In this document: one piece after another, positions 55,824-63,978 of the stretch
Layout: every line of letters begins with the position of its first letter
Numbering within the stretch: the first letter of the stretch is position 1
Assembly: GCF_017875645.1 (NCBI RefSeq)
Contig: NZ_JAGGMR010000001.1
Coordinates: 7,254,001 to 7,318,000, forward strand
Direction: 5' to 3'
From: Nocardia goodfellowii
GTDB lineage: Bacteria; Actinomycetota; Actinomycetes; Mycobacteriales; Mycobacteriaceae
Length of the DNA stretch: 64,000 bases
Made by a program: the position numbers and the translations under genes
Notes under the pieces: generated by a model
The model's input: the letters and a program-made list of their open reading frames with translations, nothing else
Databases searched by the model: none
What the model was told of the DNA's origin: nothing

Positions 55824-57893
55824 TCAGCCCGCGAAGGCGAAGTCGACCCGTTCGTCGAGCGTGCGCTGCGCCTCCGCGTCCAGCGGGCGGCCGTCCACGA
55901 ATTCGCCTACCAGGCCGATGATGTCGGACGACGCCCGCGAGCCGGGATCCGGCACCGGCAACCGCGAGACATACTGGGTGATCCAGCGCCGCCGCCCCGA
56001 GTACAACCGGTTGCCGCACACCGCATCGTAGAACCGCAGACCCAATCCCGAATTGGCCACGCCCATCAGCAGATACGCGATTCGCTCGGCACCGATATCG
56101 GCAAGGGACATCCAGTAGCAGTCCCCGTTCACCACAGCCCCGGACCGATCGAACGCGAAACGGGGCCGCACACTGATATCCGGAAACACCAGCTTCGGCA
56201 CTTGCCACAAATGCGGCCGCTGCGGCACCCAGATCTCGAACCACTCCCGGCCGCCCTCGATCACATACTTCCGACCCGCCAGCAAGGCCCGATGTCTTCG
56301 CAAATACGTCGCAGCCCTGGGGAATTCGCGCAAATCCACTGGAATGCGGCGTGACTGGGTGGTGTCGTACGGATACAGCACCCGGGTATCGCGCGCCCGA
56401 GCGATCCGCCACGGCTCCAGATCATGATGCGTGATCAAATCGAACAGCAACTCCGGCTCCGGACACGGATCCACCTGCCGCCACCGATCAGAAATGAACA
56501 CCCGATCCGCCGTCGTCTTGATCCCCACCCGAATTCGCGCCACCTCCCCGAACGTCTTCCACGTCCCCGCCTCAACTCCTACCAGCCATTCCTCCAACGC
56601 GGGCCGCGACATCCGCCACACCCCAGCACCCTGCGCCGCCGACGGGATCTCCGCGACAGCCGAATCACCCAGCCCGCCGCCGGAATTCAGATGCCGACGG
56701 TCGGTCGAAATCTGAACGGCAGCGGCAGCACCATTAGCCGGTTTACATAGGTGAGGACACGAGGCTGGTTCGCCATGAGCCGGGACAAGAGCAGCAGGCG
56801 GCACCACCGGAACTAGAGATTCCGGAGTGGATGTGTCGGGAGGCACGGCCGGAATTGCAGGCCCAGGGGTGGACGTGCCGGAAGGCACCGCCGAAACTAC
56901 AGGCCCCGCGGTGAATGAGCCGGAAGGCACCATCGGAACTACAGAACCCGGAGTGATTGTGCCGGGAAGCAACGCCGGAAGGTGACAGGGCACGGCGGCG
57001 CGGCAGGAAGTTCCGGCAGGAGAACCATGTGGTGACCGGTCGGTGGATGGTTGGTCCGCTGAGGGTTTCGCGACAGCGGAGAACGAGTCGCCTGTCGACA
57101 ACGTCCCTACCTCGACGACGAAAGTTCGCCCGTTGTGTCCGACCAGGCTGCCATAGTTCTGTGCGAGCGCTTCGAAAAGGTCGTGCCCGCCAGCGCTTTC
57201 GGGGACGTCGACCTGGTACGCCGACGCGTATCGGCATTCATCCACCACCACATCACGTCTGGCGATGGTGATCGCCGGTAGTACCGCTGCCTCGAAAAGT
57301 TTGGTGTCACCCAGGTCGTAGAGCTCTACCGGGGCCAGTTCGCGGCGCAGTATCGCGCGAATGTTGGCACCTGCCCTGGTCGTGAGAAAGCGGTTCGCGC
57401 AAAGTAATCCGAGCACTCCACCGGAGGTGAGCAGGCGCGGCGCGACCGCCACGAAGGGGTGAGTGAGGTCGATTCGGCCCGCCAGTCCGAACTTTTTGCT
57501 GAGCAGCCGCGCGGTGGCGCCGCCCAGCTGCTGCGTCCGCACGTACGGCGGGTTGGTGATGATCGCGTCGAAGGCCCCGTCCGGTAGGTGCGCTTCGGCG
57601 ACGAGGAAATCGCCGCTGTGCCAGTCGATTTCGTCGTCGGCTCGGGAACGGGCCAGTTCGACCGCTGCGGGGTCGAGGTCGTACCCGGTCAGCTCCAGCC
57701 GCACGCCGGGTAACCGCTCGGCCGCTTCCCGGCGCACCGCCAGGAGCAACTCCCCGTCCCCGCATGCCGGATCCAGTACCCGCAGCACGTCACCGGGCGG
57801 CACATGCGCCAGCAACCGAGTCGCCAGAAAACGCGCCAGCGCGGGCGGCGTGTAATGCCGCCCATGCCGTTTGCGCTCCCGCGCCGCGCTCAT
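55824..57893 (-). CDS. Orphan N6-adenine DNA methyltransferase (Eco57I-like)
   Basis: A 689-residue class I methyltransferase. SAM motif I is VLDPACGDGELL (Asp41), motif IV NPPY at residues 114-117, and the N-terminal HYTPPALARFLATRLL motif is typical of Eco57I/TaqI-type enzymes. Residues about 285-375 are a low-complexity Pro/Ser/Thr/Val insert holding a 14-residue tandem repeat. The rest (about 440-689) is a target-recognition-like domain with VRIGIK-like IRVGIKTTADRVFIS and WVPQRPHLWQVPKLVFPDIS. No restriction endonuclease, BREX or DISARM partner is nearby. ATG 57893 chosen; an upstream ATG at 57944 is possible. Confidence 0.85.
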   Translation of the reverse strand: MSAARERKRHGRHYTPPALARFLATRLLAHVPPGDVLRVLDPACGDGELLLAVRREAAERLPGVRLELTGYDLDPAAVELARSRADDEIDWHSGDFLVAEAHLPDGAFDAIITNPPYVRTQQLGGATARLLSKKFGLAGRIDLTHPFVAVAPRLLTSGGVLGLLCANRFLTTRAGANIRAILRRELAPVELYDLGDTKLFEAAVLPAITIARRDVVVDECRYASAYQVDVPESAGGHDLFEALAQNYGSLVGHNGRTFVVEVGTLSTGDSFSAVAKPSADQPSTDRSPHGSPAGTSCRAAVPCHLPALLPGTITPGSVVPMVPSGSFTAGPVVSAVPSGTSTPGPAIPAVPPDTSTPESLVPVVPPAALVPAHGEPASCPHLCKPANGAAAAVQISTDRRHLNSGGGLGDSAVAEIPSAAQGAGVWRMSRPALEEWLVGVEAGTWKTFGEVARIRVGIKTTADRVFISDRWRQVDPCPEPELLFDLITHHDLEPWRIARARDTRVLYPYDTTQSRRIPVDLREFPRAATYLRRHRALLAGRKYVIEGGREWFEIWVPQRPHLWQVPKLVFPDISVRPRFAFDRSGAVVNGDCYWMSLADIGAERIAYLLMGVANSGLGLRFYDAVCGNRLYSGRRRWITQYVSRLPVPDPGSRASSDIIGLVGEFVDGRPLDAEAQRTLDERVDFAFAG
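56809..56976 (-). repeat. Four tandem 42-bp repeats inside the methylase gene
   Basis: Units 56809-56850, 56851-56892, 56893-56934 and 56935-56976 are exactly 42 bp each, similar but not identical. On the coding strand each encodes 14 residues of the type GTSTPGPAIPAVPP. The unit length is a multiple of three, so gain or loss of units keeps the frame. Confidence 0.9.
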
Positions 57894-58104
57894 GGGTGGG
57901 ATTGTGCCCCAGGGACGCGGGTGCGCACTTCCGATATCAATCATCCGGAGACACGATCCGCGGGATATCCGACGGCGAGCGATACGCACGCACGATCCGC
58001 GGCGCGAGTTCGTGGCGGATGCAGTCGGCGTCTCCGCGGACCGAAAGTGTTCTGCCCGTTGCTATTCACGACTGCCGTCCCTCCTCGCGGTCCCGGAACA
58101 AGCG

Positions 58105-58134
58105 TCGGCGCGCCCGTTGAACCGGGCGCGCCGA
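58105..58134 (-). terminator. Terminator of the repeat-protein locus
   Basis: TCGGCGCGCCC and GGGCGCGCCGA form a perfect 11-bp stem with an 8-nt loop, 16 nt after the stop of the small membrane protein. It closes the three-gene unit that starts at 63978. The 57894-58104 stretch has no gene. Confidence 0.8.
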
Positions 58135-58149
58135 AGCCGTCGACAGTGA

Positions 58150-58416
58150 TCAGCGGGTGTGCGTACCGGTACCGCGGCCACGGGTGACCATCGCACCGAC
58201 CGCGGTCACGATCGCGCCGACCACACCACCACCGGCGACTTGACCGAGCACCTGGCCGAAGTCCAGGCCGCTGCTGGTCGCCGCTTGGATGATGGCGCCG
58301 GTGATGCCACCGCCGACGGCGCCGAGAGCGCTGTTGCCGGCCATACCGAGGTTGCTCCTGGCGCCGGCGAGGTTACCGCCGATCAGTCCAGCGAGAAGTC
58401 CAAGAATCCATTCCAT
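58150..58416 (-). CDS. Small Gly/Ala-rich membrane protein
   Basis: An 88-residue protein with three hydrophobic segments rich in Gly and Ala: ILGLLAGLIGGNLAG, SALGAVGGGITGAIIQAA and GGGVVGAIVTAVGAMV. The GxxxG spacing suggests tightly packed helices (glycine-zipper-like), and the C-terminus is basic. GGAGG precedes the ATG. It lies 32 nt after the LGFP gene on the same strand, so it is probably part of the repeat-protein operon. Function unknown; membrane assembly is an inference. Confidence 0.75.
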   Translation of the reverse strand: MEWILGLLAGLIGGNLAGARSNLGMAGNSALGAVGGGITGAIIQAATSSGLDFGQVLGQVAGGGVVGAIVTAVGAMVTRGRGTGTHTR

Positions 58417-58448: not shown

Positions 58449-59711
58449 CTAGTGCTTCGGATCGGAGTCGCTCTTGTCTTCCCGGCTGCGCTGATTCGCG
58501 CCGACGGCGTTGTTCTCGTAGGTGACGGACATCCCGACATCGGCGGCCTTGTCGTCGACGAACCCGTGCCGTCCGGTGGTCATCGGCGCGTCCTGCTCGC
58601 GTTCCACCATGCGCGGCGGAGTCGGCGGCTTGGGCGCTTCGTAGGCCGGACGCGTCGTGGTCCACGGCTGGGTCCTGGGCACATTGGGCGCGTTCGGGCC
58701 CTTGAACTCCGTCCTCGGGGCGGTGTACCGGGGCGGCTCCGGCGCCCGCGTCGTGGTGGTGGTCCGGGGAGCCACCGGCCGCGTCGCCACCGGGTGATCC
58801 ACCCGGGTGTTGGTCGCCGGACGGCGACCCATCAGACCGAGCAGCGCACCGACGACCGCGGTGATGGCCAGACCGATCGGGACACCCCACCACCGGTTGA
58901 TGCCCGAAGACGACGACGTGTCCGTGTCGACGGTCGGAGCGGCCACGTCGGGCGCCGGGTTGGGCATGTTGGGTGCGGGCGGAGCCGGCGGCACGGCCGG
59001 GGCCTGCATATTCGGCGCCTCGGCCTTGAACCCGGGCAGGGTCGCGGCCAGATCGGCCGGCACGGTGGTGGTGCCGTTCGCCTCGGACCACTGGATCTCG
59101 GTACCAGCGGGACCGGCGAACATGCCGGTCATCACGCCGTTGACATCGGTCATGTCCGCGGTCGGATAACCGAACGGGCCCGCCACCCCACCGCTCGCAC
59201 GCCAGGCATCGAGGACCCTGCCCTCCACTACGTGCGAACCGTTCTGCGGGCTCCAATAGATCGCCGCGCCGCCTTCTTTGGCGAAGTTGTTGAACCGGCC
59301 GACACTGTCGCCGGTGCCGCTCTCGTCATTGGTCGGGAAGCCCAGCGAACCCTCCGGACCGCCCATCGCCTGATACTTCGCCAGGATGTCGCCGTACATC
59401 ACCTTCGCGCCGGTGTCGGCCGAGTAGTAGATGTTGCAGCCCTGGTAGGCCCGCATGGCGCCACCGGCTACCTCGCTGGCCGCGCCGGTGGGCTGGCCAC
59501 AGAAGGACCCGGCGCCGCCGAAATCGGAGTAGCGGGCGTCGATCTGCTGGTTGATCTCCTCCGACACCTGGGCGTGGGCGAACGGCGCCGCACCGAGCAT
59601 CGCGCCCGAACTGAGCAGCACCATGCTGCCGAGCGCGAACCCGCGGGCACGCCAATCCTTCCGAGCACCGAGAACCATTGTCGCGGGGGCGAACTGAGTG
59701 AAATCTGACAT
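58449..59711 (-). CDS. LGFP-repeat envelope protein with a membrane span and cytoplasmic tail
   Basis: A 420-residue exported protein. Signal peptide with cleavage after AHA (residue 47). LGFP-type repeats occur in residues about 105-215: LAKYQAMGGPEGSLGFPT and VLDAWRASGGVAGPFGYPT, each followed by an aromatic segment such as GAAIYWSPQNGSHVV. LGFP repeats in corynebacterial Cmt/PS1 proteins are thought to bind the cell wall. A Pro/Ala linker (230-265) leads to one membrane helix (274-294, WWGVPIGLAITAVVGALLGL) and a basic Pro/Thr/Arg tail of about 125 residues inside the cell. ATG 59711 has AAGGAG 7 nt upstream. It follows the giant repeat gene by about 100 nt. Confidence 0.9.
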   Translation of the reverse strand: MSDFTQFAPATMVLGARKDWRARGFALGSMVLLSSGAMLGAAPFAHAQVSEEINQQIDARYSDFGGAGSFCGQPTGAASEVAGGAMRAYQGCNIYYSADTGAKVMYGDILAKYQAMGGPEGSLGFPTNDESGTGDSVGRFNNFAKEGGAAIYWSPQNGSHVVEGRVLDAWRASGGVAGPFGYPTADMTDVNGVMTGMFAGPAGTEIQWSEANGTTTVPADLAATLPGFKAEAPNMQAPAVPPAPPAPNMPNPAPDVAAPTVDTDTSSSSGINRWWGVPIGLAITAVVGALLGLMGRRPATNTRVDHPVATRPVAPRTTTTTRAPEPPRYTAPRTEFKGPNAPNVPRTQPWTTTRPAYEAPKPPTPPRMVEREQDAPMTTGRHGFVDDKAADVGMSVTYENNAVGANQRSREDKSDSDPKH

Positions 59712-59814
59712 CACCAAACTCCTTTGTCAGGGTTACGGATGTGCCTTCTGGTCGGTCTTGCCGCGGGCGGTGGCCTTCCGGAATCCGGTGGATGGGCGCC
59801 ACCCGCAGGGATCG

Positions 59815-62800
59815 TCAGTGACGCCGGCGATGATCCCGATCGGCGTCGTCACGACCGCGTTCCTGCTGCTCCGAACGCGGATCCTGGACGAGTTCCTCAC
59901 TCGGCAGGACATCGGACGCCTTGCCGAGGATGCCGCCGCTGGGATGCTCGCCGGTGCGACGCTCGATGAACTCCACGTCGCCCGGTTCACCGGTTTCGCG
60001 AACCACCGGCCGCACATCCCTCGCCGGGCCCTGGTCCTCGTGCACCACCGTGGTGACCCGTTCGGCCGACTTCTCCACGTATTTGTGCACCAGCACCGGC
60101 TTTTCGACGACAACCTCAACGATCTTTTCCACCGGCTTTTCGACGATCCGCTCGGCCAGCACGTCGACCGGCTTCTCGACGACTTTCTCGACGAGACGCG
60201 GGACCTGGACGGTCTTCTCGAGTACCTTCTCGACCGGCTTCTCGATGGTCTTTTCCACGATCTTGGGCCGCTCGACCACCTTTTCGACGACCTTGTCGAC
60301 GGGGCGGTCGATGGTGCGCTCGATGATGTTCGGCTTCTCCACCATCCGCTCCACCACCTTGTCCACCGGACGGTCAACGGTCTTCTCGATGATGTTCGGC
60401 TGTTCCACAACCTTTTCCACCACCTGATCGACCTGACGGTTCACCGTCTTCTCGACCACGTTGGGATTGGTGACGACCTTCTCCACGACGTGGTCGACCT
60501 TCTTGTCGACCGTCTTCTCCACGACATTGGGATTGGTGACCACCTTCTCCACGATTTGGTCGACATCGCGGTTCACCGTCTTCTCGACGACGTTCGGGCT
60601 CGTGACAACGGTTTCCACCACCTGGTCGACGTCGCGGTTCACCGTCTTCTCGACGATGTTCGGGTTGGTGACCACCTTCTCGACCACCTGATCGACATCG
60701 CGGTTCACCGTCTTCTCCACCACGTTCGGGTTGGTGACCACCTTCTCCACCACCTGATCGACCTGACGATTCACCGTCTTCTCGACGATGTTGGGCTTCT
60801 CCACCATGCGCTCGACGACCTTGTCGACGGGACGCTCGACAGTGCGCTCGATGATGTTCGGCTTCTCCACCATCCGCTCCACCACCTTGTCCACCGGACG
60901 ATCGATGGTCTTCTCGATGATGTTGGGCTTCTCCACCACCTTCTCGACCACCTTGTCCACCGGCCGCTCGACCGTCTTCTCGACAATGTTCGGCTTTTCC
61001 ATCACCCGCTCGACCACCTTGTCCACCGGACGATCGACGGTGCGTTCGATGATGTTCGGCTTCTCCACCACCTTCTCGACCACCTTGTCCACCGGACGCT
61101 CGACCGTCTTCTCGACAATGTTCGGCTTCTCGACGACGCGCTCCACCACCTTGTCCACCGGACGGTCAACGGTCTTCTCGATGATGTTCGGCTTCTCGAC
61201 TACTCGCTCCACCACCTGATCGACGTCGCGGTTCACCGTCTTCTCGATCACGTTCGGGTTGGTGACAACCTTCTCCACCACTTGATCGACCTGACGATTC
61301 ACCGTCTTCTCGACGATGTTCGGGTGCGTGACGACCTTCTCCACGACGTGGTCGACCGGACGGTCGATGGTCTTCTCGATGATGTTGGGCTTGTCCACCA
61401 TGCGCTCGACAACCTTGTCGACCGGGCGGTCAACGGTCCGCTCGACAATGTTGGGCTTCTCCACCACCTTCTCGACCACCTTGTCCACCGGACGGTCGAT
61501 CGTCTTCTCGATGATGTTGGGCTTCTCCACCACCCGTTCGACAATGCGGTCGACGACCTTGTCGATGGTGCGCTCGATGATGTTCGGCTTCTCCACCACC
61601 TTCTCGACCACCTTGTCCACGGGACGGTCGACGACCTTCTCCACCACGTTCAGCTTCTCGACGACCTTCTGCACCATGCGCTCGACGGGCCGATCGATCA
61701 CCTTCTCGATGATGTTCGGCTTCTCGACGAAACGTTCCACCACCTTGTCGACCGGGCGCTCGACCACCTTCTCGATAATGTGCGGCTTCTCCACAACGCG
61801 CTCGACGACCTTGTCCACCGGGCGCTCGACGGTCTTCTCGACGATGTTCGGCTTCTCGATCACGCTCTCCACGACACGGTCGACGACCTTCTCGACCGGC
61901 CGCTGCACGATGTTCTCGACCACGACCTCGCGCGGCACTTCGACGTTCTTGATCACCGGCTTCTCGACCATGAGCTCGACGGTCTTGGTCACCGGCTTCT
62001 CCACCGTCTTGTAGACGATGCGCTCCACCGGGACCTCGATGATCTTTTCGACTACCTTCTCGACCGGCTTCTCCACCACTCGCTCGATGATCTTCTCGAC
62101 CGGCTTCTCGACGACCCGCTCCACGAACTTCTGCACGGGCACCTCGACGACCTGGTCGACCACGTTGACAACGGGCTTCTCCACCCGGCGCTCGATGGTG
62201 ACCGGTTTGTCGACCACGTTGTCCTTGATGTCGACCATCAGCTTCTCCACCAGTCGCTGCACCTCGACCGGGCGGTTCTGCACGTTGTCGACGACGTTGA
62301 CCACCAGCTTCTCGACCAGGCGCTGCACCTCGACGGGCTTATTCGAAATCTTGTCGACGATGCTGACCACCGGCTGTTCGATGTGCCGCTCCAGCCGGAT
62401 CGGCTTGTCGGTGACCTGGTCGGTCATCGTGACGGTCGGCTTCTCGATGTGGCGGGTGATGCTGACCGGCTTGTCGATGACCTTGTCGGTCACCGTCACC
62501 ACCGGCTTCTCGATCCGGCGACCCACCGTCACCGGCTTGTCGATGACCTGGTCCTGCACGGTGACCACGGGCTTCTCGATCCGGCGACCCACGGTCGTCG
62601 GCTTGTCGACCACCTGATCGGTCACCGTCACGTTCGGCTTCTCGATCCGCCGTGGCACCGAAACCGGCTTGTTCACCACCTGATCGGTGACGGTGACGAC
62701 CGGCTTCTCGATCCGGCGGGTGGCGGTCATCGGCTTGTCGACAACCTGGTCCTGTACCGAAACGCGCGGCTGCTCGGTCGTGCGGGTCACCTTGACCGGC

Positions 62801-63978
62801 TTCTCGATCACCTGATCGGTCACGGTGACGATCGGCTTCTCGATCCGGCGCGTCAGCGAAACCGGCTTGTCCACAACTTGATCGGTCACGGTGACGACCG
62901 GCTTCTCGATCCGGCGGCCGACCGTCATCGGCTTGTCCACGACCTGGTCCTGCACGGAAACGCGCGGCTTCTCGATATTGCGGAGCACGTTGACCGGCTT
63001 GTCCACCACCTGATCGGTGACCGTCACGACCGGCTTCTCGATCCGGCGGCCGACCGTCATCGGCTTGTCCACCACCTGATCGGTCACCGTCACGACCGGC
63101 TTCTCGATCCGGCGCGACAGCGAAACCGGTTTGTCCACCACCTGATCGGTGACCGTCACGATCGGCTTCTCGATCCGCCGACCGACCGTCATCGGCTTGT
63201 CCACCACCTGGTCGGTCACCGTCACGATCGGCTTCTCGATCCGGCGCGACAGCGAAATCGGTTTGTCCACCACCTGATCGGTGACGGTCACCCGCGGGCG
63301 CTCGGTCGTGCGAGTCACCTTGACCGGCTTGTCGATGACCTCATCGGTCACCGTGACGCGCGGCCGCTCAGTGGTGCGCGTGACCCGCACGGGCTTGTCG
63401 ATCACCTGGTCGGTGACGGTCACCCGCGGCTTCTCGATGGTGCGCGTCAGGTTCACCGGGCGGTCGATCACCTTGTCCGTCACCGTCACGACCGGCTTCT
63501 CGGTCGTCCGGGTCACGTTGACCGGCTTGTCGATCACCTTGTCCGTCACCGTGACCACGGGCTTCTCGGTCGTGCGCGTCACGGTGACCGGCTTGTCGAC
63601 GACCCGATCGGTCACCTTCACCACGGGCTTCTCGACCCGGCGGGTAACCGAGACCGGCTTGTCCACCACCTGATCGGTCACGGTGACGTTCGGCTTCTCC
63701 ACCACCCGGCTGACCTTGACCGGCTTGTCGCGGACCTCATCGGTCACGGTGACCACGGGGCGCTCCACCATGCGGGATACACGGGCCGGCTTGTCCACGA
63801 TCTGATCGACGGTGTCGACGACCAACCGTTCGATCACCCGCTCCATCTGCACCGGCTTGTCGATGACCTGCTCCACCGGGTGCTCGACCAATCGCTCCAC
63901 GGTGTAGGGACGGTCCACCACCTTGTCGGCTACATGCACGGGTTCCTCGAGCGGCTTACGGTCTTGTCTGTTGGCCAT
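59815..63978 (-). CDS. 1387-residue protein of 51 tandem 22-residue repeats, alveolin/articulin-like
   Basis: Complete gene: GGAGG (63983-63987) lies 4 nt before ATG 63978. Residues 40-611 are 26 units of family A, typical halves EKPVVTVTDQVV and DKPVSLSRRI. Residues 612-717 are an irregular region with EVPVQKFVERVVEKPVEKII and EKIIEVPVERIV. Residues 718-1267 are 25 units of family B, halves DRPVDKVVERVVEKP and NIIEKTV. An acidic then basic tail (1310-1387) ends RDHRRRH. There is no signal peptide, no membrane span, no Cys or Trp and hardly any aromatics, so it is probably cytoplasmic. Alternating Val/Ile with charged residues between K/R-P turns predicts short beta strands, as in alveolin (EKIVEVP) and articulin (VPV) repeats. 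A filament or solenoid scaffold is inferred. No bacterial family is recognised. Confidence 0.9.
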   Translation of the reverse strand: MANRQDRKPLEEPVHVADKVVDRPYTVERLVEHPVEQVIDKPVQMERVIERLVVDTVDQIVDKPARVSRMVERPVVTVTDEVRDKPVKVSRVVEKPNVTVTDQVVDKPVSVTRRVEKPVVKVTDRVVDKPVTVTRTTEKPVVTVTDKVIDKPVNVTRTTEKPVVTVTDKVIDRPVNLTRTIEKPRVTVTDQVIDKPVRVTRTTERPRVTVTDEVIDKPVKVTRTTERPRVTVTDQVVDKPISLSRRIEKPIVTVTDQVVDKPMTVGRRIEKPIVTVTDQVVDKPVSLSRRIEKPVVTVTDQVVDKPMTVGRRIEKPVVTVTDQVVDKPVNVLRNIEKPRVSVQDQVVDKPMTVGRRIEKPVVTVTDQVVDKPVSLTRRIEKPIVTVTDQVIEKPVKVTRTTEQPRVSVQDQVVDKPMTATRRIEKPVVTVTDQVVNKPVSVPRRIEKPNVTVTDQVVDKPTTVGRRIEKPVVTVQDQVIDKPVTVGRRIEKPVVTVTDKVIDKPVSITRHIEKPTVTMTDQVTDKPIRLERHIEQPVVSIVDKISNKPVEVQRLVEKLVVNVVDNVQNRPVEVQRLVEKLMVDIKDNVVDKPVTIERRVEKPVVNVVDQVVEVPVQKFVERVVEKPVEKIIERVVEKPVEKVVEKIIEVPVERIVYKTVEKPVTKTVELMVEKPVIKNVEVPREVVVENIVQRPVEKVVDRVVESVIEKPNIVEKTVERPVDKVVERVVEKPHIIEKVVERPVDKVVERFVEKPNIIEKVIDRPVERMVQKVVEKLNVVEKVVDRPVDKVVEKVVEKPNIIERTIDKVVDRIVERVVEKPNIIEKTIDRPVDKVVEKVVEKPNIVERTVDRPVDKVVERMVDKPNIIEKTIDRPVDHVVEKVVTHPNIVEKTVNRQVDQVVEKVVTNPNVIEKTVNRDVDQVVERVVEKPNIIEKTVDRPVDKVVERVVEKPNIVEKTVERPVDKVVEKVVEKPNIIERTVDRPVDKVVERVMEKPNIVEKTVERPVDKVVEKVVEKPNIIEKTIDRPVDKVVERMVEKPNIIERTVERPVDKVVERMVEKPNIVEKTVNRQVDQVVEKVVTNPNVVEKTVNRDVDQVVEKVVTNPNIVEKTVNRDVDQVVETVVTSPNVVEKTVNRDVDQIVEKVVTNPNVVEKTVDKKVDHVVEKVVTNPNVVEKTVNRQVDQVVEKVVEQPNIIEKTVDRPVDKVVERMVEKPNIIERTIDRPVDKVVEKVVERPKIVEKTIEKPVEKVLEKTVQVPRLVEKVVEKPVDVLAERIVEKPVEKIVEVVVEKPVLVHKYVEKSAERVTTVVHEDQGPARDVRPVVRETGEPGDVEFIERRTGEHPSGGILGKASDVLPSEELVQDPRSEQQERGRDDADRDHRRRH
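60178..61827 (-). repeat. 66-bp tandem array B (25 units)
   Basis: Twenty-five consecutive 22-codon units, residues 718-1267 of the giant protein. Two subtypes alternate: the common type with DRPVDK or ERPVDK and VVEKPNI, and an NRDVDQ or NRQVDQ type with VVTNPN, which appears in two clusters (units 8-10 and 17-22). Neighbouring units are very similar at the DNA level, indicating recent duplication or conversion. Confidence 0.95.
62146..63861 (-). repeat. 66-bp tandem array A (26 units)
   Basis: Twenty-six consecutive 22-codon units, residues 40-611. Divergence is larger at both ends, and units in the middle are nearly identical, alternating between an SLSRRI type and an MTVGRRI type (units 10-13), so a 132-bp pair is a higher-order unit. 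Confidence 0.95.

Follow-up and report, generated by a model that had tools for sequence, protein, structure and literature searches.

In a 64,000-nucleotide stretch of the Nocardia goodfellowii genome (contig NZ_JAGGMR010000001.1; hereafter the window) we analyzed a gene for a giant protein composed of two long arrays of 22-residue repeats, the N-arm and the C-arm, joined by a hinge. In this protein and in nearly all of its countable relatives the numbers of units in the two arms are matched, and, judging from the sequences, one-to-one pairing of the arms is most likely, either as a hairpin or as an antiparallel dimer. We lean towards a broader reading, in which the protein would be a paired-arm cytosolic rod, tethered to the envelope by an LGFP-repeat protein encoded in the same operon and forming a membrane skeleton similar to those of epiplastins and alveolins. 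The parts of the repeat gene are as follows.

59815..63978, minus strand: repeat protein gene, 1387 amino acids (open reading frame, guanine plus cytosine (GC) content by codon position, family comparison)
62131..63846, minus strand: N-arm, 26 units of 22 residues (residues 45-616), consensus VTRRIEKPVVTVTDQVVDKPVT
61867..62130, minus strand: hinge, 88 residues (617-704), 12-residue alveolin-like repeats (EKIIEVP, EKPVEK)
60217..61866, minus strand: C-arm, 25 units of 22 residues (705-1254), consensus KVVEKPNIVEKTVDRPVDKVVE
59815..60216, minus strand: C-terminal cap (12-residue repeats) and charged tail, TGxHP near the end (from alignments)

An earlier reading made from the letters alone (the sequence-only reading) had described a complete frame of 1387 residues, 51 in-phase units, a joining region with EKIIEVP and EKPVEK, and the absence of Cys and Trp. 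The frame is real: it starts with an ATG closely preceded by GGAGG, and, although the opposite plus-strand frame is open too, the codon-position GC of the minus frame (0.685/0.276/0.899) identifies it as the coding one, the plus frame showing the mirrored pattern. The number of units is exact, the joining region lies where it was placed, and the composition count (Val 26%, Glu 11%, Lys 10%) contains neither Cys nor Trp. No hydrophobic N-terminus is visible in the protein, as judged without running a signal-peptide program. Identity at a lag of 22 residues is 0.60 for the whole protein, vs at most 0.16 at any lag from 5 to 119 in 200 shuffles. The units are on average 74% identical to the consensus of the first array and 78% to that of the second, values that come from cutting 26 units per array, the last unit of the second being already cap. 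The two consensus sequences differ, with an identical proline spacing of 12 and 10 residues. The hinge motifs EKIIEVP and EKPVEK are spaced 12 residues apart, and lags of 36, 12, 60 and 24 are prominent between residues 590 and 720.

The number of units was counted from a fixed first N-arm unit to the hinge and from the hinge to a fixed last C-arm unit. In 21 of the 24 proteins counted the N-arm has exactly one unit more than the C-arm, and N-arm sizes across the family are 8, 9, 10, 11, 13, 14, 16 and 26. Among Nocardia the N/C numbers are 26/25 in the window protein and in G503, 11/10 in G090, 10/9 in G046, and 8/7 in G085, G091 and G499; a divergent paralogue in G503 keeps the rule with 9/8 units and a hinge of 88 residues. 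Mycobacterium L044 has 10/9 units, and the Gordonia members that keep the rule have 16/15 (G115), 13/12 (G291) or 14/13 (G416, and likewise G178, G435, G362, G272, G399, G407, G421, G478 and G282). Left out of the count were split or cut members (G162, G356, L050, L054, L056, L059) and a short paralogue from the window genome, which has 3 and 2 units by eye. Of the 24 hinges, 13 measure 88 residues, seven 104 and four 124, the latter 11 all being from Gordonia. According to a Fitch count on the family tree (paralogue excluded, G476 absent), the size of the N-arm has changed at least seven times. We know of no mutation mechanism that adds equal numbers of units to two arrays of different sequence, and selection for equal length via pairing is therefore the natural reading of the matched numbers.

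The types of units provide a second line of evidence. In the window protein, RTTE-type units with Thr at position 4 are N-arm units 5, 6, 8, 9 and 17 (unit 7 being a half type, RTIE), and VTNPN-type units with Asn at position 4, renumbered as 27 minus their number in the C-arm, are again 5, 6, 8, 9 and 17, with variants VTSPN at 7 and VTHPN at 18. Thus, the Thr-4 units of the N-arm are exactly the i+j=27 partners of the Asn-4 units of the C-arm, a register that corresponds to full overlap of both arms around the hinge and that is predicted equally by a single-chain hairpin and by a full antiparallel dimer. In G503 unit 7 is RTTE with Asn in its partner, and the partners of units 9 and 17 lack Asn. 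With 26 registers compared in both orientations, i+j=27 has the highest number of strong associations in both giants (10 vs 5 for the next register in the window protein, 14 vs 8 in G503). Limited to its 25 pairs, this register has eight strong associations, a number reached in none of 20000 permutations of unit order; the same permutations of the window arms reached its mean r2 once and its best single r 249 times, and none of 49 rotations or flips reached its count of strong associations, figures to be read with the fact that the RTTE and VTNPN types had been spotted by eye before the statistical test. Among smaller members, permutation gave p of 0.01-0.02 for L044 and, on mean r2 only, 0.01 for G178; L043 also gave 0.01-0.02, yet its unit count misfits the register. 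Per-unit substitutions between the window protein and G503 revealed no clear register.

Downstream of the repeat gene, on the same strand, lie two further genes of the operon.

58449..59717, minus strand: LGFP-repeat protein (Pfam LGFP, 101.6 bits); a single membrane span is predicted after the repeats
58830..58886, minus strand: membrane span of that LGFP protein as predicted from hydropathy, with an Arg-containing tail behind it
58467..58520, minus strand: tail motif YENNAVGANQRSREDKSD, at which the repeat protein may dock
58150..58416, minus strand: third gene of the operon, 88-amino-acid Gly-rich hydrophobic protein without a Pfam match
58107..58132, minus strand: GC-rich inverted repeat, possible terminator, read by eye after the third gene

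The score of the partner exceeds the cut-off of its family (PF08310; 22 bits), as does that of a Gordonia partner (L158, 96.9 bits). Its frame is listed from a TTG; an ATG two codons inward is preceded by an AAAGGAG stretch. By the positive-inside rule the Arg-containing tail behind the span would be cytosolic. The LGFP gene and the small Gly-rich gene follow the repeat gene on the same strand in all seven Nocardia carriers. At the Mycobacterium-type loci (L043, L044, L050, L056, L059) the LGFP gene is next in all five and the small gene is present in four (not L056). Gordonia clade A (G115, G291, G416 and G. hirsuta, L119) likewise has the LGFP gene next, and no small gene was found there. 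A membrane span after the LGFP part, followed by a tail of 118-218 residues, is predicted in 15 of the 16 LGFP proteins encoded at these loci (in that of L059 no span rises above the hydropathy threshold), and all 16 tails carry variants of YENNAVGANQRSxxDKSD (e.g. YRNNAVG in L050, YVNNALG in L158, YANNALG in L119). With Ile allowed, a DNA pattern for Y-[E/A/D]-NNA-x-GA matched seven of 150 Nocardia genomes, which are exactly the carriers of the repeat gene, and none of the 143 others, counts that ignore relatedness and to this extent belong with the reservations gathered below. The same pattern read backwards matched none of the Nocardia genomes. A version without Ile missed Mycobacterium-type L043 and L044, in which Asn or Asp replaces the last Ala.

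LGFP proteins with a span and a small gene also occur in Nocardia genomes free of the repeat gene, and in seven of seven such proteins inspected the motif is missing. These pairs (L113-L118, L120) have different cytosolic tails, and in L118 and L120 the gene order differs. Judging from these sequences, the LGFP/small-gene pair may be a wider membrane-wall module with exchangeable tails.

Taken together, these features suggest the following arrangement. The repeat protein would be a cytosolic rod or ribbon whose two arms pair unit by unit in antiparallel fashion, with the 88-residue hinge of 12-residue repeats serving as the turn of a hairpin or as the middle of an antiparallel dimer. The operon partner would tie the rod to the envelope, its LGFP repeats lying outside, its single span crossing the membrane and its tail motif (Y-x-NNA-x-G) docking on the rod. 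Rods lying side by side or end to end might then build a membrane skeleton linked to the mycolate wall, and arm length may set its mesh size or reach, tuned between species. We consider it possible, if on the whole doubtful, that the mycolate bacteria have in this way a skeleton of their own, made of antiparallel length-matched rods under the plasma membrane that are bolted through it to the mycolate wall by a transmembrane LGFP protein, with arm length as a genetically tunable ruler and RTTE/VTNPN as the pairing code; if true, this would be an epiplastin-like system with a pairing rule readable from sequence.

Several observations weigh against the tethered, paired rod. The count rule is broken by L043 (a Mycobacterium metagenome-assembled genome (MAG); 10/7) and by two Gordonia members, G476 (13/13, its C-arm reading 13.05 by a one-residue offset of the cap mark and taken as 13) and G403 (13/about 13, with a masked stretch). 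Covariation of unit types is clear in just the two related giants, and most other members, which have fewer and more uniform units, gave no significant covariation in the permutation test. A scan of mean r2 put some parallel shifts, of smaller overlap, above the hairpin register, and the unsupervised first principal component of unit types favored a parallel shift. AlphaFold2 models were poor: the hinge with flanks (18 rows) gave a mean predicted local distance difference test score (pLDDT) of 36.9 and no assigned secondary structure, and seven C-arm units (48 in-register rows) gave 35.7, with unreliable strands of about eight and six residues. At eight Gordonia loci (L159-L166) the LGFP gene adjoins the repeat gene in none, and seven of eight Gordonia genomes searched have no or weak LGFP matches, with G. 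hirsuta alone matching strongly; in these eight genomes the motif pattern without Ile was likewise matched in G. hirsuta alone.

Low pLDDT and the patchy distribution of the gene would suit a low-complexity filler or disordered protein with a repeat number drifting neutrally. We give this explanation little credence, as drift would not hold two arrays of different consensus at matched numbers through eight sizes, and identity to the first row of alignment A1 is 45-88% among the relatives aligned there. The failed single-arm model is not a refutation of pairing, because PMC12465100 reports that AlphaFold fails in the same way on alveolin domains, leaving each disordered by itself, and that two partnering domains form a twisted beta-ribbon; in PfIMC1e, according to the same paper, the two partnering domains sit within one chain. 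A search of PDB sequences returned weak matches to OspA and Pumilio and nothing better.

Since most Gordonia carriers lack an LGFP neighbor, the tether is not universal. Gordonia clade B, without the adjacent partner, would fit a protein whose arms pair and which is free in the cytosol, acting as a ruler, a spacer or an adaptor solenoid (e.g. in envelope synthesis) rather than as part of a skeleton; matched arms fit any rod, and the strong variation of arm length between species speaks for this explanation as well. We regard it as unlikely, given that the co-occurrence of the motif and the neighboring LGFP gene, seen in Nocardia, at Mycobacterium-type loci and in Gordonia clade A, point to the membrane. 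At Gordonia loci L046-L049, L051, L052 and L055, where the repeat gene has no LGFP neighbor, NUDIX-like and YceI-like genes lie nearby (by eye).

The periodicity of the arms raises another alternative, namely that the protein binds lipid surfaces amphipathically, like apolipoprotein or perilipin, and coats the membrane or lipid bodies. The strongest hydrophobic harmonic in both window arms is at 98 degrees (in the C-arm, 82 is nearly equal), not at 160-180; it fits a helix or a four-residue pattern and is weak after correction for the choice of harmonic (0.15 and 0.09). Pfam Apolipoprotein (PF01442) matches with 35.5 bits and an E-value of 1e-8, far under the cut-off of 90, and is not listed for any of five relatives scanned. 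Two prolines per 22 residues and the richness in Val and Ile disfavor long helices, and units that bind lipid independently would not be expected to keep the arms matched, which makes lipid coating quite improbable. Other profile matches were set aside: those to MIP-T3 and phasin are mostly below cut-off or erratic between relatives, and that to DUF445, above cut-off in L043, L046 and L158, was presumed to be compositional.

The sequence-only reading had compared the protein with alveolins and articulins and had proposed a bacterial filament or scaffold. PMC6212826 describes epiplastins by a domain with acid-base dyads, high Val+Ile and low Ala+Gly, predicted to be beta-strand or coil without helix, and the window protein has this composition: Val+Ile amounts to 0.32, 0.41 and 0.36 in N-arm, hinge and C-arm, Ala+Gly to 0.012, 0 and 0.002, and the dyads number 56 in the N-arm, 13 in the hinge and 105 in the C-arm. 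The Pfam alveolin profile IMCp (PF12314; cut-off 21.1 bits) is passed by relatives L030 (29.6), L043 (25.5) and L158 (44.1), and at E ≤ 10 four of five members of alignment A1 match, the best with an E-value of 7e-13. L046 stays below the cut-off, and hmmscan lists neither the window protein nor its short paralogue for IMCp even at E ≤ 10. The segment 61531-62406 of the window scores 20.1 bits, vs the cut-off of 21.1, and a six-frame search of the window gives 26.3 bits summed over neighbors. Two reversed and five shuffled segments gave no IMCp match; therefore the order of residues matters, not composition alone. A real segment of L028 also passes the cut-offs of MIP-T3 and DUF7774, and one reversed control passes that of T4_Rnl2_C; therefore such profile matches prove little. 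IMCp matches were found in four of 14 control genomes, one of them above cut-off, and IMCp is annotated on an OmpA family protein, helix-hairpin-helix proteins and a fungal PH-domain protein; a match is therefore no proof of descent.

It is against this background that true descent from alveolins, by gene transfer from a protist or with the bacterial family as the source of the eukaryotic one, has to be judged. The scores of the relatives, lost upon reversal or shuffling, would agree with it, as would the presence of IMCp-bearing proteins, one of them from Chromera, among the protein matches listed. We consider descent highly improbable given the unspecific behavior of IMCp, the passing of other families' cut-offs, a period of 22 in the arms vs the 12 of the Val/Pro-rich alveolin repeats, which occurs in the hinge and cap, and the placement of the strong relatives recovered here, which are Mycobacteriales. 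The composition and the IMCp scores of relatives support the proposed likeness to alveolins, and the missing IMCp entry and the arm period speak against it; the filament or scaffold part of that proposal gains from the operon and the paired arms, with kinship unproven. The best reading, by analogy, is that the window protein works like an epiplastin rather than as a member of the alveolin family.

With epiplastins, alveolins and articulins the window protein shares repeats rich in Val, Ile, Glu, Lys and Pro, poor in Ala and Gly and containing acid-base dyads, as well as the 12-residue repeats of its hinge. As with alveolins, no confident monomer fold is obtained, and the paired beta-ribbon described in PMC12465100 resembles the arm pairing proposed here. 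Epiplastins belong to a membrane skeleton, the epiplast, and alveolins to cortical filaments beneath alveolar sacs. Unlike the epiplastins and alveolins of protists, the protein is bacterial and has two matched 22-residue arrays and a transmembrane LGFP partner. Compared with other mycolate LGFP proteins (PF08310), the partner shares their repeats and adds the membrane span and the conserved tail motif that co-occurs with the repeat gene. Caulobacter is not known to have a mycolate wall. Proteins of this type are known from it too: bacterial epiplastin-like 'articulins' are already in print, described in the available portions of PMC6212826 and PMC4303705 as having numerous VPV and VYV modules, where the window protein has two VPV, and neither of these portions mentions matched arms or an LGFP partner. 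Bacterial VEK-repeat proteins (P0001, P0002, P0121, L057) share VEKPVEKIVE-type repeats and differ at their ends, which by eye are OmpA-like in P0001 and P0002 and helix-hairpin-helix-like, with an N-terminal membrane anchor, in L057. Helix-hairpin-helix ends were found in P0121 and others (PF14520 in many) and by eye in L057, L058 and L060; such VEK-repeat proteins, some with the anchor, appear to form a separate epiplastin-like group.

At E ≤ 1e-30 the repeat family was found in seven of 150 Nocardia and 16 of 59 Gordonia genomes. Among 401 genomes drawn from the taxonomic family of the source, there are 16 carriers in two of 31 genera (E ≤ 1e-20), and other genera of this taxonomic family are therefore rare carriers at best. 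Mycobacterium-type MAGs carrying relatives, among the matches listed, are L043, L044, L050 and L056. Two contigs binned as Bifidobacterium breve (L054, L059) have a mycolate-type repeat gene, one of them with an LGFP gene; their DNA looks mycolate, and the assignment is likely a binning error. In the gene tree the Mycobacterium pair is grouped and two Gordonia clades are each kept together; many branches are weak, with good support for six of the 20 inner ones. When the window protein and alignment A3 served as queries against protein sequences, no mycolate-bacterium name appeared among the 120 matches listed (of 283 and of 685, respectively); these lists are not a census, because only candidates sharing most words were scored, and it is the genome searches that find close relatives. 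Weaker loci (L057 on) belong to many phyla among the matches listed, of which L057-L060 were read, and weak same-genus matches in G022 and G056 were rejected, as they contain no frame carrying the motifs of the repeat family. The source genome (8.0 Mb, two contigs) has its short paralogue next to thiC, and the additional paralogue of G503 has 628 codons.

We know of no solved structure of an epiplastin or alveolin filament that would show how the repeats pair. Bacterial arms matched through eight sizes provide a pairing rule that can be tested directly, in a system simple enough for structural studies. Should the LGFP link hold, it would mean mechanical coupling between the cytosol and the outer wall in mycolate bacteria, of which the titles and abstract openings returned by a literature search make no mention, which is not proof of its being unpublished.

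Upstream of the window, on the same strand (L026:7748-12015), lie genes for a carboxyltransferase, a beta-ketoacyl synthase and an acyl transferase, a set that we take to be the make-up of the mycolic-acid type II fatty acid synthase cluster; inspected by eye, Nocardia loci L028-L031 lie beside different genes. Within the window, positions 55824-57989 encode an Eco57I-type DNA methyltransferase, in the middle of which a 42-base-pair tandem repeat array (56800-56980) encodes an insert rich in Ser, Pro and Val.

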